From Gammaproteobacteria bacterium (GTDB lineage: Bacteria > Pseudomonadota > Gammaproteobacteria > Pseudomonadales > JADFDG01), in the NCBI GenBank assembly GCA_018262975.1, contig JADFDG010000006.1, positions 145,137-198,926 of the forward strand: a stretch of 53,790 nucleotides of DNA, written 5' to 3'. A model generated the notes under the pieces. It saw only the letters and a list, made by a program, of their open reading frames with translations, was not told the DNA's origin and made no database searches. Position 1 is the first letter of the stretch. Each line of letters starts with the position of its first letter. The position numbers were made by a program, and so were the translations under genes. This document shows, piece by piece, positions 2,185 to 53,019 of this stretch.

Positions 2185-5895
<3,711 letters not shown>

Positions 5896-9614: not shown

Positions 9615-10646
9615 TTACAGGGTGGGCGTACGGGTGAGTCGTCCCCACCAGCGCACGAGGATGCGGTCGACGGCACCTTCCATGGCGAACCCCATGCGTT
9701 CAGCCAGCGTCTTGCGGTGCTGCCAGTGCACGTGGAATACGTCGGCTTCCTTCGCGGCATTCACCAGGTATTCGTCACTGGTCATCAACTCGTCGACCAG
9801 CTGCAGTTCCTTCGCGCGCAGCGCGAACCAGTGCTCGCCGGTGGCGACCTTCGCCAGGTCCACCTGCGGGCGCCACTGGCCGACAAACGCCTTGAAGAGG
9901 CCGTGCACGTCCTCCAGTTCCTCGCGGAACTTCTCGCGGGCCTTGTCGGTGTTCTCGCCGAACATGGTCAGCGTGCGCTTGTACTCGCCGGCGGTGTGCA
10001 GTTCGATGTCGATCTCGTGCTTGCGCAGCAGGCGGTTGAAGTTGGGGATCTGGGCGACCACGCCGATCGAGCCGAGCACGGCAAAAGGCGCGGCCAGCAC
10101 GCGGTCGGCCACGCAGGCCATCATGTAGCCGCCACTGGCAGCGATTTCATCCACGCAAACGGTGAGCGGGACCCTGGCCCGGCGGATGCGCTCCAGTTGC
10201 GAGGCCGCGAGGCCGTAGCCCGTCACCATGCCGCCGCCGCTGTCCAGGCGCAGCACCACTTCGTCCTTGTCGGTGGCCACCGCCAGCACGGCGGTGATCT
10301 CGTGGCGCAGCTCATCAACCGCCGAGGCCTGGATGTCACCGTCGAAATCCAGCACGAACACGCGCTTGCGCGGGTGGTCCGACGCTTCCTTCTCGCGGGC
10401 CTTCTCCTGCTTGCGGCGCTCCTTTTCCTCGCGCTTGAGCACCTCTTCGGGCAGTACTTCCTCGCGGATGGTCGCCGCCATGTCATCGAAATCGTCGTTC
10501 AGGCAATCGACCTGGATCTCGCCGTGCACGGACTGGCGCTTGTTGTGCCGGGCCAGCGAGCCCAGCCCGCCGACGACCACCAGGATGGCGACGACAATGG
10601 TCGTGGCCTTGAGCAGGAACATGCCGTAATCGGCGAGGAATTCCAT
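9615..10646 (-). CDS. sohB: Inner-membrane serine protease SohB (peptidase S49)
   Basis: The 343-residue product starts with one membrane anchor (about residues 8-28). A highly charged Glu/Lys/Arg stretch (residues 60-95) follows, then the S49 protease domain. The serine-lysine dyad is visible as Ser171 in DEIAASGGYMMA and Lys223 in GEYKRTLTMFG. The segment LRLDSGGGMVTGYGLAASQL and the whole C-terminal half closely follow E. coli SohB (349 aa). It probably cleaves membrane-associated or signal peptides on the periplasmic side. The start at 10646 gives the conserved N-terminus MEFLADYG. It heads a sohB-acuI pair and is divergent from the histidine phosphatase gene. Confidence 0.93.
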   Translation of the reverse strand: MEFLADYGMFLLKATTIVVAILVVVGGLGSLARHNKRQSVHGEIQVDCLNDDFDDMAATIREEVLPEEVLKREEKERRKQEKAREKEASDHPRKRVFVLDFDGDIQASAVDELRHEITAVLAVATDKDEVVLRLDSGGGMVTGYGLAASQLERIRRARVPLTVCVDEIAASGGYMMACVADRVLAAPFAVLGSIGVVAQIPNFNRLLRKHEIDIELHTAGEYKRTLTMFGENTDKAREKFREELEDVHGLFKAFVGQWRPQVDLAKVATGEHWFALRAKELQLVDELMTSDEYLVNAAKEADVFHVHWQHRKTLAERMGFAMEGAVDRILVRWWGRLTRTPTL

Positions 10647-47643: not shown

Positions 47644-48786
47644 ATGGTCGAGAAAATGAATCCGCGGGTGGTCCTGCAACTGAAGAAGGCCGGCTACTGG
47701 ATGTTCCTGCTGCCTGCCGCCCTGCCCTTCCTGGCGTATGCCGCCATCCAGCAATTCGGTCATGCCAACTGGTTTGCCTGGGCGCCGTTCCTGTTCGTGT
47801 TCGGGGTGATCCCGGTGCTGGACTACATCGTGGGCCAGGACCCGGTGAACCCGGACGAGGCCAGCGAAGTGCCGGCGATGTCCGAAGAGAAGTACTACCG
47901 CTTCCTGACGCTGATGGTGCTGCCGGTGCAGGCGCTGCTGACGGTGGGCGGCGCGGTGATGTGGTTCGCGCTGTTCGACCAGTTCAACCTGGCCGGGCAC
48001 ATCGGCTGGCTGGTGGCGGTGGGCATTGCCTCCGGCGCGGTGGCGATCACCGTGGGCCACGAGCTGACGCACAAGGACGAGAAGCTCGAGCAGATCGTGG
48101 GCGGCATCCTGCTGGCGATGGTGACCTACGCGGGCTTCAAGGTGGAGCACATCCGCGGCCACCACGTGAACGTGTCCACGCCGGAAGATGCGTCTTCCGC
48201 CCGCTTCAACCAGAGCCTGTATGCGTTCCTGCCGCACGCCTGGAAGCACAACTTCCTGAATGCGTGGGTGCTGGAAGCCAAGGAGCTGAAGCGTCGCGGT
48301 TTCCCGGCGTTCCACTGGCGCAACGAGTTGATCTGGTGGTACGCGCTGTCGGCGGCGTTCCTGGTCGGGTTCGCGGTGGCGTTCGGCTGGCTGGGTGCGC
48401 TGTACTTCGCGCTGGTGTCGTTCATCGCGTCGTCCACGCTGGAGGTGATCAACTACATCGAGCATTACGGGCTGCACCGTCGCAAGCTGGAGAACGGTCG
48501 CTACGAGCGGACGACCATCCATCACAGCTGGAATTCGAACTACCTGTTGTCGAACCTGCTGTTGTTCCATCTGCAGCGCCACAGTGACCACCATGCGTAT
48601 GCGAAGCGTCGCTACCAGGTGCTGCGTCACCACGAGGAGTCGCCGCAGTTGCCGCTGGGGTATCCGGGGATGTTCCTGATGGCGTTCGTGCCGCCGCTGT
48701 GGTTCGCGGTGATGAATCCGCGGGTTGAGGCGTATTACGCGGGGGAACGGCACCAGTTGACGGGGGAGCAGAAGGCGGTGGCGTGA
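47644..48786 (+). CDS. alkB: Alkane 1-monooxygenase (AlkB-type membrane hydroxylase)
   Basis: AlkB oxidises n-alkanes to 1-alkanols at a diiron centre in the inner membrane. The 380-residue product has about six membrane helices and all histidine boxes: HELTH (139-143), HIRGHH within the diagnostic EHIRGHHVNVSTPED (169-174), NYIEHYGLHR (270-279) and LQRHSDHH (310-317). Length is typical of AlkB without fused rubredoxin. GAGGA precedes the ATG. No rubredoxin, rubredoxin reductase or regulator gene is adjacent, so electrons must come from proteins coded elsewhere. A structured repeat begins 16 bp after the stop. Confidence 0.94.
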   Translation: MVEKMNPRVVLQLKKAGYWMFLLPAALPFLAYAAIQQFGHANWFAWAPFLFVFGVIPVLDYIVGQDPVNPDEASEVPAMSEEKYYRFLTLMVLPVQALLTVGGAVMWFALFDQFNLAGHIGWLVAVGIASGAVAITVGHELTHKDEKLEQIVGGILLAMVTYAGFKVEHIRGHHVNVSTPEDASSARFNQSLYAFLPHAWKHNFLNAWVLEAKELKRRGFPAFHWRNELIWWYALSAAFLVGFAVAFGWLGALYFALVSFIASSTLEVINYIEHYGLHRRKLENGRYERTTIHHSWNSNYLLSNLLLFHLQRHSDHHAYAKRRYQVLRHHEESPQLPLGYPGMFLMAFVPPLWFAVMNPRVEAYYAGERHQLTGEQKAVA

Positions 48787-48801
48787 GTGCCGGCGGTGTG
48801 C

Positions 48802-48932
48802 GGGTGGCGGGGGCGCCGGGTGGCGGCGCTTTCGCCCTCGTCGGGGGTCTGGCACGGTTGGCGCAAGACGGCAAAGACTCAGCGCCCCCCTTCCCTCGGT
48901 CGAGGCGCCGCCACCCGGCACCCCCGCCACCC
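48802..48932 (-). repeat. Structured palindromic repeat, copy A
   Basis: The 28-bp arms at 48802-48829 and 48905-48932 are inverted repeats with one mismatch. Between them, read on the minus strand, are block 1 (48878-48904, starting CTCGACCGAGGGAAGGGG), a 25-nt variable part and block 2 (48832-48852, starting CCAGACCCCCGACGAGGG). Copy B at 50102-50234 has the same layout. The arms differ from those of copy B but each set pairs with itself. Confidence 0.85.
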
Positions 48933-48961
48933 TGTCAGGCCGGTGGTCACTGGATGGAAAA

Positions 48962-48991
48962 GCAAAACGCCCGGCATGCCGGGCGTTTTGC
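48962..48991. terminator. Bidirectional terminator between alkB and the TauE/SafE gene
   Basis: A perfect 30-bp palindrome, GCAAAACGCCCGGC and its complement, with A and T runs at its ends. Confidence 0.9.
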
Positions 48992-49012
48992 GTTGGGGCG
49001 CAGTCCGGGGAA

Positions 49013-49987
49013 TCAGAGCAGGCGGTAAATGTTGAAGGCGCTGATGAGGGTGATGAGGGAGCCGACCAGGATGAGCAAGGTTTTCGTGGCGAAGTGGCGG
49101 GTGAGGTAGGCGGCGAAGGGGGCGGCGAAGAGGCCACCGAAAGCCAGGCCGGCGACGAGGGTCCAGACGGTGGCGTCGAGGATGGTGAAGAACGCGGCGG
49201 CGACGGTGAGGGTGAGGAAGAATTCGGCGAAGTTGACCGAGCCGATGGTGGTGCGCGGGTCGTGGCCGGCGCCGATCAGCGAGGTGGTGACGATGGGGCC
49301 CCAGCCACCGCCGCCGGTGGTGTCCATGAAGCCGCCGAACAAGGCCAGCGGCGCGACGCGGCGGGTGTTGATGTCGCGCTGCGCGCGGATGTGGCGGAAG
49401 GCCTTGCTGAACACGTACAGGCCCATCACCAGCAGGTAGGCGTTGATGAACGGCTTGAGCACGGCGCCGTCGACGTTGCTCAGGATGTACGTGCCGATCA
49501 GCGCACCGAGGATGCCGGGCAGCAGCAGGCTGAAGAACAGGCGCTTGTTCACGTTGCCGAGCTTGAGGTGCGACACGCCGGACACGCCGGTGGTGAACAC
49601 CTCCGCCAGGTGCGTGGCGCCACTGGCCATGGCCGGCGACGCACCCGTGGCCAGCAGGAAACTGGTGGACGTGATGCCATAGGCCATCCCCAGCGCACCA
49701 TCGATCACCTGCGCCAGCAGGCCCACGCCGAACGCACTCCAGAACATCGGGTCGTGCAGCGTGTTGACCACCAGTTGCGTAGCCGACACCTCGTGATCCC
49801 CACTGAACAACCGCCACGCCAGCACCGCCACCAGGCTCACCAGCGCCGCGATGGCCACGTACCCGGCAATGCGCAACCAGGGGTGATCTGACGCGTGCGT
49901 CACCTGGTACTCCACCGGCGGAATTCCGAGGGCTTCGTGCTCGGGGTTGACGGTAGTGTCCGCAAGATCGGGGTTACGCAGTTTCAT
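49013..49987 (-). CDS. TauE/SafE-family sulfite/organo-anion exporter
   Basis: The 324-residue product has a 37-residue soluble N-terminus and eight or nine membrane helices in two related halves, the hallmark of the TauE/SafE (TSUP) family. Family pieces include GLLAQVIDGALGMAYGITST in the first half and GGFMDTTGGGGWGPIVTTSL in the second. Substrates of known members are sulfite, sulfoacetate and other sulfur-containing anions. A link to the sulfite reductase far upstream is possible but not shown. The ATG at 49987 gives MKLRNPDLAD. The gene lies between the two copies of the structured repeat. Confidence 0.88.
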   Translation of the reverse strand: MKLRNPDLADTTVNPEHEALGIPPVEYQVTHASDHPWLRIAGYVAIAALVSLVAVLAWRLFSGDHEVSATQLVVNTLHDPMFWSAFGVGLLAQVIDGALGMAYGITSTSFLLATGASPAMASGATHLAEVFTTGVSGVSHLKLGNVNKRLFFSLLLPGILGALIGTYILSNVDGAVLKPFINAYLLVMGLYVFSKAFRHIRAQRDINTRRVAPLALFGGFMDTTGGGGWGPIVTTSLIGAGHDPRTTIGSVNFAEFFLTLTVAAAFFTILDATVWTLVAGLAFGGLFAAPFAAYLTRHFATKTLLILVGSLITLISAFNIYRLL

Positions 49988-50101
49988 GACAGTTCCGGCC
50001 GGGAAATTCGAATCCCGCCCATTCTGCGCAACCCGATTTATTCCACCAAAGAATATTCAGAACTCTGCTTATAACCTTACATCCAACCCACCACCCTGCC
50101 C

Positions 50102-50234
50102 GGCCGGTGGGCGTGGGTGGGTGGGGTGGCCTCGACCGAGGGAAGGGGGTCGCTGAGGCCTGCCAGGCTGGCGCTGGCCCCTCCAGACCCCCGACGAGGG
50201 CGACAGCCACCCCACCCACCCACGCCCGCCGGCC
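50102..50234 (+). repeat. Structured palindromic repeat, copy B
   Basis: The 29-bp arms at 50102-50130 and 50206-50234 are inverted repeats with one mismatch (GGCCGG.GGGCGTGGGTGG). Block 1 at 50131-50157 matches copy A in 26 of 27 positions, block 2 at 50183-50203 matches in 21 of 21, and the variable part is again 25 nt. A 2-nt gap separates block 2 from the right arm in both copies. Copy B is in the opposite orientation to copy A. Confidence 0.85.
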
Positions 50235-50290
50235 ACGCACGGTGATGGCGGCCATCACGAACATTTATGGCCCCCAACCCCCGGGATTCC

Positions 50291-50319
50291 TTACGCAAAT
50301 GCCCGGGTAGCGCTAGAAT
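50291..50319 (+). promoter_or_regulatory. Sigma-70 promoter of acnB
   Basis: TTACGC, 17 bp, TAGAAT. The predicted leader is about 90 nt. Confidence 0.65.
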
Positions 50320-50415
50320 TCCGCCCCGGTTTTCACCGTGCCGGCACAACCGGCGCGCCACGGCGGCTCCATCAACCGGCCGCCACCCACGTCCACGCAT
50401 TTCGGGGATATCACC

Positions 50416-53019
50416 GTGCTCGAAGCCTACCGGAAACACGTTGCCGAACGCGCCGCCCAAGGCGTCCCGCCCAAGCCGCTCGACGAGAAGCAGGTTGCCG
50501 AACTCGTCGAACTGCTGAAGAACCCGCCGAAGGGTGAAGAAGCCGTCCTCGTCGACCTCATCACCAATCGCGTACCGCCGGGCGTCGACCCCGCCGCGTA
50601 CGTGAAGGCCGCGTTCCTCGCCGACGTTGCCAAGGGCAAGGCGAAATCCCCGCTGATCGATCGCAAGAAAGCCACTGAACTGCTCGGCACCATGCTGGGC
50701 GGCTACAACGTGCAGCCGCTGATCGACCTGATCGACGACGCCGACGTGGGCGACATCGCCACCAACGCGCTGTCCAAAACCCTGCTGATCTTCGACAAGT
50801 TCCACGACATCGAAGAGAAGGCCAAGACCAGCAAGAACGCCGCCAAGGTCCTGAAGGCCTGGGCCGACGCGGAGTGGTTCACCAGCCGCCCGGAAGTACC
50901 GAAGAAAATCACCATCACCGTCTTCAAGGTCACCGGCGAAACCAACACCGACGACCTCTCCCCGGCGCAGGACGCCTGGAGCCGCCCGGACATCCCGGTG
51001 CACGCGCTGGCCATGCTGAAAAACCCGCGCGACGGCATCAACCCGGACCAGCCGACCGTGGTCGGCCCAATCAAGCAGATCGAAGCGCTGAAGGCCAAGG
51101 GCCACACGGTTGCCTACGTGGGCGACGTGGTGGGCACCGGCTCCAGCCGCAAGTCCGCCACCAACTCCGTGCTGTGGTTCACCGGTGACGACATCCCGTG
51201 CGTGCCGAACAAGCGCGACGGCGGCATCTGCATCGGCGGCAAGATCGCCCCGATCTTCTACAACACGATGGAAGACGCCGGCGCCCTGCCGTTCGAATGC
51301 GACGTGTCGGGCCTGAACATGGGCGACGTGGTCGACGTCTACCCGTACGAAGGCAAGATCACCAAGCACAACAGCAACGACGTGATCACCACGTTCTCGC
51401 TGAAGACCGATGTGCTGCTGGACGAAGTGCGCGCCGGCGGCCGCATCAACCTGATCATCGGCCGCGGCCTGACCAACAAGGCGCGTGAAGCGCTGAAGCT
51501 GGGCCACTCCGACGCGTTCCGCACCGTCGAGCAGCCGAAGGACACCGGCAAGGGCTACACGCTGGCGCAGAAGATGGTCGGCAAGGCCTGCGGCGTGAAG
51601 GGCGTGCGCCCGGGCACCTACTGCGAGCCGAAGATGACCACCGTCGGTTCGCAGGACACCACCGGCCCGATGACGCGCGACGAGCTGAAGGACCTGGCGT
51701 GCCTTGGCTTCTCCGCGGACCTGGTCATGCAGTCGTTCTGCCACACCGCCGCCTACCCGAAGCCGGTGGACGTGCAGACGCACCACACCCTGCCGGACTT
51801 CATCATGAACCGCGGCGGCGTGTCGCTGCGTCCGGGTGACGGCATCATCCACTCCTGGCTGAACCGCATGCTGCTGCCGGATACCGTGGGCACCGGTGGC
51901 GACTCGCACACCCGCTTCCCGATCGGCATCTCCTTCCCGGCCGGCTCGGGCCTGGTGGCCTTCGCCGCCGCCACCGGCGCCATGCCGCTGGACATGCCGG
52001 AATCCGTGCTGGTGCGCTTCAAGGGCAAGATGCAGCCGGGCATCACGCTGCGCGACCTCGTGCACGCGATCCCCTACTACGCCATCAAGGCCGGCGACCT
52101 CACCGTCGAGAAGAAGGGCAAGAAGAACATCTTCAACGGCCGCATCCTCGAGATCGAAGGCCTGGAAGACCTGACCGTGGAGCAGGCGTTCGAACTGTCC
52201 GACGCCTCCGCCGAACGTTCGGCCGCCGGCTGCACGATTTCGCTCAGCGAAGCGAGCGTGAAGGAGTACCTGACCTCCAACATCACCATGCTCAAGTGGA
52301 TGATCGCGGAAGGCTACGGCGACGCCCGCACGATTTCGCGCCGCATTGCCGCCATGGAAGCCTGGCTGGCCAAGCCGGAACTGATGCGCGCCGACAAGGA
52401 CGCCGAGTACGCCAAGGTCTACGAGATCGACCTGAACGAAATCAAGGAGCCGATCCTCTGCTGCCCGAACGACCCGGACGATGCCAAGCCGCTGTCCGAA
52501 GTGGCCGGCGCGAAGATCGACGAAGTGTTCATCGGTTCGTGCATGACCAACATCGGTCACTTCCGCGCGGCCGGCAAACTGCTGGACAAGGTGGAAGGCG
52601 GTTCGCTCGCCACCCGCCTGTGGCTGGCGCCGCCGACCAAGATGGACGAGCACCAGCTGCGTGAAGAGGGCTACTACAACATCTACGGCCGCGCCGGTGC
52701 GCGTACCGAGATGCCGGGCTGCTCGCTGTGCATGGGCAACCAGGCGCGCGTGGCCCCGAACACCACCTGCGTGTCCACGTCCACCCGCAACTTCCCGAAC
52801 CGCCTCGGCCAGGGCTCGGACGTGTACCTCGCGTCCGCAGAGCTCGCCGCCGTTGCCGCGGTGATGGGCAAGCTGCCGACGGTCGCGGAGTACATGGAGT
52901 ACGCCAACAAGATCGACGCGATGTCGAAAGACATCTACCGCTACCTGAACTTTGATCGTCTGCCGGAGTACACCGACAAGGCGGCCAAGGCGAAGATTTC
53001 GGTGGCGCAGGGGCAGTGA
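50416..53019 (+). CDS. acnB: Aconitate hydratase B
   Basis: AcnB isomerises citrate and isocitrate in the TCA cycle; some relatives also hydrate 2-methylaconitate. The 867-residue product (E. coli 865) starts with the HEAT-like domain typical of AcnB and continues with the swivel domain before the catalytic domains ([33 protein letters not shown]). The cluster-binding cysteines are in [10 protein letters not shown] and [11 protein letters not shown]. The start is GTG at 50416, with GGGGA 7 nt upstream, giving [16 protein letters not shown] just as E. coli AcnB begins; the longer frame to 50338 has no family support. A strong terminator follows. Confidence 0.96.

Follow-up and report, generated by a model that had tools for sequence, protein, structure and literature searches.

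Integron cassettes are single-gene units whose attC site, marked by the boxes RYYYAAC and GTTRRRY, is recognised as a folded strand and is variable in sequence, while bcr1 of Bacillus cereus is an intergenic repeat, similar in size to the element described here, which bears signs of mobility. Mobile units which lack an internal transposase are represented by MICs and by the composites of TIME/MITE elements, described in two studies as a gene or segment lying between inverted repeats and moved in trans (PMC4133298, PMC6542083). REPs, as presented in a third study, are palindromic repeats, often arranged as inverted pairs, which flank RAYT and TIRYT genes, some TIRs being double palindromes; the same source gives CGTC REPs a CGTC head, a stem of 8-9 bp starting with A/T pairs, a loop of 4-5 and a CCA tail (PMC3733652). 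Finally, the BRE of Betaproteobacteria have been reported as intergenic repeats with signs of mobility, single or tandem, which align along their length (PMC3110155).

The genome examined here (3,306,067 bases in 29 contigs) contains three units in which a gene stands between two hairpins that both face outward, each unit with a different cargo gene, and this suggests an undescribed kind of gene-carrying insertion. The pairing of hairpins around cargo genes is the main new fact. One of the units, at C26, lies in the window, the whole stretch of 53,790 nucleotides that was analysed, and has the following features (positions counted from the first letter of the window):

48802-50234: whole unit, comprising hairpin A, the TauE gene with its terminator and upstream region, and hairpin B
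48802-48932, minus strand: hairpin element copy A, facing left, outward from the gene
48802-48829, minus strand: outer arm of copy A, outside
48833-48843, minus strand: block 2 core of copy A, CGACGAGGGCG
48890-48902, minus strand: block 1 core of copy A, CGACCGAGGGAAG
48905-48932, minus strand: outer arm of copy A on the gene side, 28 bp with one T.G mismatch
48962-48991, minus strand: palindromic site resembling an intrinsic terminator, between the TauE stop and copy A
49013-49987, minus strand: cargo gene, exporter of the TauE/SafE family, 324 aa (Pfam E 1.3e-35)
50102-50234, plus strand: hairpin element copy B, facing right, outward from the gene
50103-50130, plus strand: outer arm of copy B on the gene side, pairing reaching 50088 with mismatches
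50133-50145, plus strand: block 1 core of copy B, CGACCGAGGGAAG
50192-50202, plus strand: block 2 core of copy B, CGACGAGGGCG
50206-50233, plus strand: outer arm of copy B, outside, pairing reaching 50248 with mismatches

The two inverted structured copies are as the preliminary description had them, with one difference between A and B in block 1 and none in block 2, and the gene they bracket is indeed an exporter. The arms are self-complementary, as had also been claimed: their inner 28 bp pair with a single mismatch, T.G in both copies, and in copy B the pairing extends to 43 bp with four further mismatches. With three mismatches allowed, the 19-base core of block 1 is found at two places in the window (shuffle mean 0.03) and that of block 2 at three (shuffle mean 0.12). 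On one strand, the two ends of the TauE unit are reverse complementary, with 79% identity over 99 nt. Read in the sense of block 1, each copy consists of an outer arm, CT or AT, CGACYGAGGGAAG, an inner stem and loop, CGACGARGGCG, AAA or ACA, and the second outer arm; the C8 copies have GACTT or GACGT in place of CT/AT and ACTGA or CAGGA in place of AAA/ACA. Common to all six copies of the genome are the two-sided core TCGACYGAGGGAAG ... CGACGARGGCG, an inner hairpin and self-pairing outer arms, the distance between the two blocks ranging from 17 to 46 nt. In this core, CGAG faces CGAG, which we take to be a tandem G.A motif. Both C8 copies (L030:8164-8268 and 10187-10287) carry an extra GA facing GA at the junction of arm and core, and the C8 minus copy has one in the inner stem too; tandem G.A motifs thus recur in the hairpin element.

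A search of the genome and its relatives and a covariance model had been proposed, with the expectation of further copies whose arms pair. Within the genome, the exact 13-mer CGACYGAGGGAAG occurs at six places and its reversed control at none, and block 2 and paired arms are present in all six; CGACCGAGGGAAG with one mismatch has seven places, of which the extra one, on C2, is without the element. The outcome named beforehand as refuting, an absence of other copies or arms that fail to pair, was thus not observed inside this genome. The relatives yielded no second genome. A covariance model built from the six copies recovers those six, which match by construction, and no other up to E 10, 150 of 5,267 first-look candidates being scored, and model R1 run over 714 kb more of the same genome gave a single match (E 0.67), which falls on REPs. 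The six copies form three divergent pairs, each a minus copy followed by a plus copy, facing outward and with cores 1.2-2.0 kb apart: at 194.0 and 195.3 kb of C26 (the pair of the window), at 5.8 and 7.2 kb of C3 and at 80.2 and 82.2 kb of C8. Each of the three pairs encloses one complete gene, and all copies are intergenic, 12-182 bp from gene ends. Placed at random, six copies would form three such pairs with a probability of about 3e-8, or about 4e-10 once orientation is included, the distance limit being derived from the data. In a hairpin scan of 802,273 bases (24% of the genome, window included; arm score 17 or more, loop 3-130), the only non-REP hairpins scoring at least 17 are five copies of the element; the sixth copy, which has four G.T pairs, reaches 15, in the range (15-16) of four unrelated hairpins. 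The other long hairpins in these 802 kb are GTAG REPs, beyond which there are only palindromes and hairpins scoring 15-16, and long palindromes devoid of the core, other than REPs, were not found in this part of the genome.

The three cargo genes are mutually unrelated, namely the TauE/SafE exporter at C26, a membrane adenylate cyclase at C3 and an amidohydrolase (Amidohydro_3) at C8, and no transposase or integrase gene lies within any of the units. The C3 cargo is a class III cyclase in which a MASE7 membrane domain scores weakly (E 9e-7); with the ATG at 5863 as its start, 62 bp separate arm from start and 12 bp separate stop from arm. Its match to the Pycsar cyclase models of PADLOC (E 6e-20) covers the cyclase domain and is taken as a shared catalytic domain and nothing further. 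This gene (L029:5863-7134) is rare, with matches at 1e-30 in 18 of the 368 other genomes searched in the class and 50% identity at best. Codon usage of the cargo is ordinary (57th, 64th and 37th percentile of 278 ORFs of the genome); foreign codon usage was considered and was not seen, the percentiles being host-like. Among the matches listed, plasmid homologues reach 61% for the amidohydrolase, 49% for TauE and 52%, over half the length, for the cyclase. Alongside three amidohydrolase and one TauE plasmid loci no hairpin reaches a score of 14, and hairpins are also absent beside the nearest cyclase homologue.

Evidence for insertion comes from the C3 unit, whose neighbour DUF1285 was searched in 145 genomes of the order and is present in 116, the own genome included; the loci compared were the own one and 29 others. 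ETF-QO adjoins DUF1285 in convergent orientation in 12 of the 29 relative loci, and in 11 of these, which span six families, the gene ends are 34-214 bp apart, the remaining one having a 750 bp gap with other sequence. In the other 17 loci, no match to ETF-QO was obtained within the 1.5 kb fetched, and the cyclase has no match in any of the 29. In the window's genome, the 1,605-bp C3 unit parts ETF-QO from DUF1285, which would lie 107 bp apart without it. Because the two genes adjoin directly and convergently in 11 of the 29 relative loci but lie on either side of the unit here, the unit is taken to be an insertion; the segment between the outer hairpin ends fits the inserted segment, and the hairpins probably arrived together with the C3 gene rather than later. 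Insertion is thereby demonstrated for one unit of the three, C3, and a mobilising mechanism is what we infer. In one relative (L085:750-1501), about 750 bp of other sequence occupies the same ETF-QO/DUF1285 junction, which may be a recurrent insertion place.

Homology among the six copies is unevenly distributed. Inner loops are 89% identical within the C3 pair, 72% within the C26 pair and 63% within the C8 pair (17-19 nt only), with z values of 10.6, 6.4 and 3.0, and between pairs their identity is at most 64% (z 3.0, C26 plus versus C3 minus). For the arms, z within pairs is 0.7-1.5 (5' arms) and -0.2 to 2.2 (3' arms), and values of 3.1 and 3.3, in GC-rich sequence, are attained by some copy pairs across units; membership of one pair makes arms no more similar, and the 60 bp outside them show no similarity among copies. 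As homology is confined to the core and the inner loop, the homologous element measures about 70-75 bp, each copy being set in its own palindrome. The arms had previously been interpreted as carrying compensatory changes between copies. They are not recognisably homologous, so these are not ordinary compensatory substitutions.

In alignment A2, 82.6% of 132 cells pair, versus 64.6% in shuffles and 35-49% in slid structures, and 13 of the 22 pairs change on both sides, a value reached by none of 500 shuffles; the same six sequences served to derive the structure, and A2 does not hold the C8 arms in register. These double changes comprise nine arm pairs, three inner-stem pairs and one core pair. 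Because the arms are not homologous, the nine arm pairs show no more than the self-complementarity of each copy; the sounder evidence of covariation is the inner stem together with the one core pair, which is C-G except in the C3 plus copy, where it is T-A although the C3 minus copy, the closest relative, is among the five with C-G. Of the proposal of selection on a folded form, the part that a folded strand matters is supported, with changes on both sides of three inner-stem pairs and one core pair; the arms lose their place as proof of selection. Unpaired core positions are identical across copies. Among 182 arm positions, mismatches on the sense strand are G.T at 8, A.C at 4 and other at 3; two of the four A.C lie in the outer extension of B, without which G.T is at 8 and A.C at 2. 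The sense strand has the more stable fold in five of six copies with DNA parameters and in four of six with RNA parameters. Mismatch bias and fold stability thus lean weakly to the sense strand, RNA and DNA not being told apart. With no greater likeness of the arms within pairs than between them, though the inner loops of a pair are alike, the arms look made or renewed at each site, and their complementarity may result from template switching rather than selection. Template switching in replication is reported to create and mend perfect stems (PMC8794818).

None of the families testable here fits, in line with the preliminary description, which recognised no class that the element fits; GTAG and CGTC REPs, MITEs, attC sites, terminators and Rfam families have been set aside because each fails a defining feature tested. 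The units resemble integron cassettes as single-gene units with folded sites of variable sequence, from which they differ in that attC boxes are absent from the hairpins, that a hairpin stands at both ends and that the units are dispersed rather than arrayed: GTTRRRY occurs in none of the three units and RYYYAAC once, at 50081, outside the hairpins. Like bcr1 and BRE, the element is intergenic, of similar size and with signs of mobility; pairs around single genes are not described for BRE in the source consulted (PMC3110155).

In a GTAG REP, a short conserved palindrome carries an unpaired GTAG at one of its ends, a feature absent from the elements: GTAG does not occur inside any of the six, the C26 unit has four (at 49106-49953) and the C3 and C8 units none, and the true GTAG REPs of the genome look unlike the elements. 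On its other strand, the element does have CGTC before the inner stem, but this stem starts with G-C pairs, and the two blocks lie 17-46 nt apart. With REPtrons and TIRtrons (PMC3733652), the units share palindromic repeats in inverted pairs flanking genes; the bracketed genes here are not transposases, GTAG/CGTC-REP features are absent and the stems are unconserved. The sole Y1_Tnp match of the genome is on C25, between GTAG REPs, and none lies between elements. This one RAYT was considered as owner of the elements and was rejected, being flanked by ordinary GTAG REPs. MITEs and TIMEs have terminal inverted repeats common to all copies, whereas the arms are the least alike part of the element, the core and inner loop being conserved. 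MICs and TIME composites likewise hold a gene between inverted repeats, are free of a transposase and move in trans, but their terminal repeats match a known IS or Tn3 transposon, whereas here the outermost sequence differs in each copy. A transposon with matching ends was not found in the plasmids, phages and viral contigs searched, and no clear target-site duplication was seen, there being 5-6 base matches, out of step, at C26 and C3 and none at C8. No T-run follows the arms in the flanks, and terminator-like sites (scan loops 3-8 only) were found separate from the elements. Rfam 15 gave no match at gathering on the C3 and C8 stretches (L029, L030), and its six matches in the window at 48600-50500 are all below gathering. 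MICs and TIRtrons are nearest in plan, with a known mobilising enzyme missing, and paired elements of such a plan were not recognised in the published literature of one open library.

The searches made elsewhere revealed no second genome, virus, phage or plasmid with the element; the own genome is the sole member of its family among the genomes searched, so that absent homologues say little about age or spread. Model R1 has no match at E 0.01 in 389 other genomes of the order (nine candidates scored per genome, whereby weak relatives can be lost). In the same 389 genomes, seven have an exact TCGACYGAGGGAAG, none with block 2 within 120 bases (reversed control, six matches); in 368 others of the class there are two, neither with block 2 (control, four), and in 55 relatives exact TCGACCGAGGGAAG has one match, without block 2. 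An exact 19-mer of the C26 copies, which extends into the inner stem and would not detect copies of C3 or C8 type, occurs at four places in a genome contig collection; the best of these reaches 24.6 bits with R1 (E 0.012 over 186 kb), but most of its arm pairs are disrupted and it was taken as chance. Both blocks together were not found in viral contigs, where TCGACCGAGGGAAGG alone has 14 matches, none with block 2. By blastn, copy B against plasmids and phages and one C3 and one C8 copy against plasmids gave short pieces only, no record having a place over 80% of the query (best E 0.01). Collectively, no ends resembling the element were found in plasmids, phages or viral contigs.

The explanation that best accounts for the three units, and one that to us stands in even balance between right and wrong, is that they are insertions which carry a gene between structured hairpin ends and are acted on in trans. 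Each hairpin pair would represent the two ends of a small insertion, recognised by shape through the conserved two-sided core and inner hairpin, and an enzyme would act on folded single-stranded or cruciform DNA, presumably in trans because no recombinase gene lies in a unit. The outer arms would not be inherited and would instead arise, or be made perfect, locally at every site through fold-back copying or template switching; with unit ends reverse-complementary over the core on one strand, pairing or gene conversion may keep the inner hairpins alike. The units look immobile now, with diverged ends, host-like codon usage and no second copy of a unit. A counterpoint to insertion is that likeness is greater between the two ends of a unit than between ends of different units, which sets them apart from copies of one transposon. 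The ordinary codon usage of the cargo, the lack of a transposase or integrase in the units, the want of a clear target duplication, the 17 relative loci that do not show ETF-QO, the plasmid homologues without hairpins and the failure to find the element elsewhere also speak against it. Only tentatively, and with truth rather on the unlikely side, do we put forward a new class of mobile DNA in which a folded core instead of terminal sequence defines the ends and a fresh palindromic stem is formed at each insertion or hairpin copying keeps it perfect; equally tentative is the corollary that the ends of one unit would then share only the core and inner hairpin. Pre-existing hairpins as targets are not favoured, as no empty long palindrome besides REPs occurs in the 802 kb (24% of the genome). 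A copying of the arms from elsewhere was also rejected: for three of the six arms, 15-mers recur at a single further place, which on inspection by eye was put down to chance. Site-specific inversion by crossover in the core is unlikely, since it would be expected to leave unmatched arms, yet all six copies match.

The hairpins could instead be boundary elements, structures at the RNA or DNA level which serve to insulate a gene (as transcript ends, by mRNA protection, or as nucleoid or supercoiling barriers) and have been kept or gained around three genes with no role in movement. Every copy is intergenic and close to gene ends, and REPs are described with such roles (PMC3733652); this view is nevertheless unlikely, as terminators, where found, are separate and no T-run stands behind the arms, and it leaves unexplained both a conserved core with unrelated arms and the like inner loops within pairs. 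Still less probable appears a self-spreading repeat of about 75 bp, made of core and inner hairpin, whose arms came later by template switching, so that their complementarity is mutational, and whose pairs reflect local inverted duplication instead of gene transport. It agrees with the limits of homology and with the ability of template switching to create and mend perfect stems, as reported (PMC8794818), which makes template switching a full rival for the arms. It is no such rival for the pairing around genes: each of the three pairs encloses a single gene, which in one case is missing from the corresponding junction of relatives, and template switching made no similar palindromes elsewhere in the 802 kb scanned.

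Of the two alternatives offered originally, a hairpin-mobilised repeat or a small RNA, the former has proved the better half, the latter being less likely because the six copies form divergent pairs around one gene and an intrinsic terminator stands between the TauE stop and copy A. A family of structured small RNAs, with two genes per locus transcribed outward, would suit the conserved unpaired core nucleotides beside a changing inner stem and the weak strand bias of the arm mismatches; it is very improbable, as there is no Rfam match at threshold, the TauE and C3 stretches have no sigma-70-like promoter and the one of the C8 stretch (10344-10371) lies beyond the unit, the sense RNA fold is the more stable in four of six copies only, and the pairing around cargo would go unexplained.

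If gene-carrying insertions of this kind are or were mobile, single ordinary genes could be moved between structured ends with neither a transposase in the unit nor a conserved terminal repeat, and mobile-element finders relying on terminal sequence would miss them. The copies also offer a test case for the origin of perfect stems, by selection or by template switching, as a homologous core and inner stem and non-homologous arms coexist within the same copies.

The genome further contains a GTAG-headed REP family, GTAGMGAGGGGGCCATGCCCCCGA, at 27 places in 408 kb of C3, C8 and C26, often as inverted dimers, one example lying beside the C3 unit at L029:5577; REP-type hairpins number 56 in the 802 kb. 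A weak model match at L125:5298-5376 (19 bits, E 0.67) falls on a REP dimer. The REP tails, CCCCCGA, are similar to the 3' side of the inner stem together with block 2 of the C26 copies, a likeness which may be chance or distant kinship. At L061:1329-1988 on C25, the sole Y1 (RAYT-like) transposase gene is enclosed by two inverted REP dimers whose complementarity is 94% over 71 nt, forming a REPtron, whose flanking ORFs are toxin-antitoxin-like by eye.
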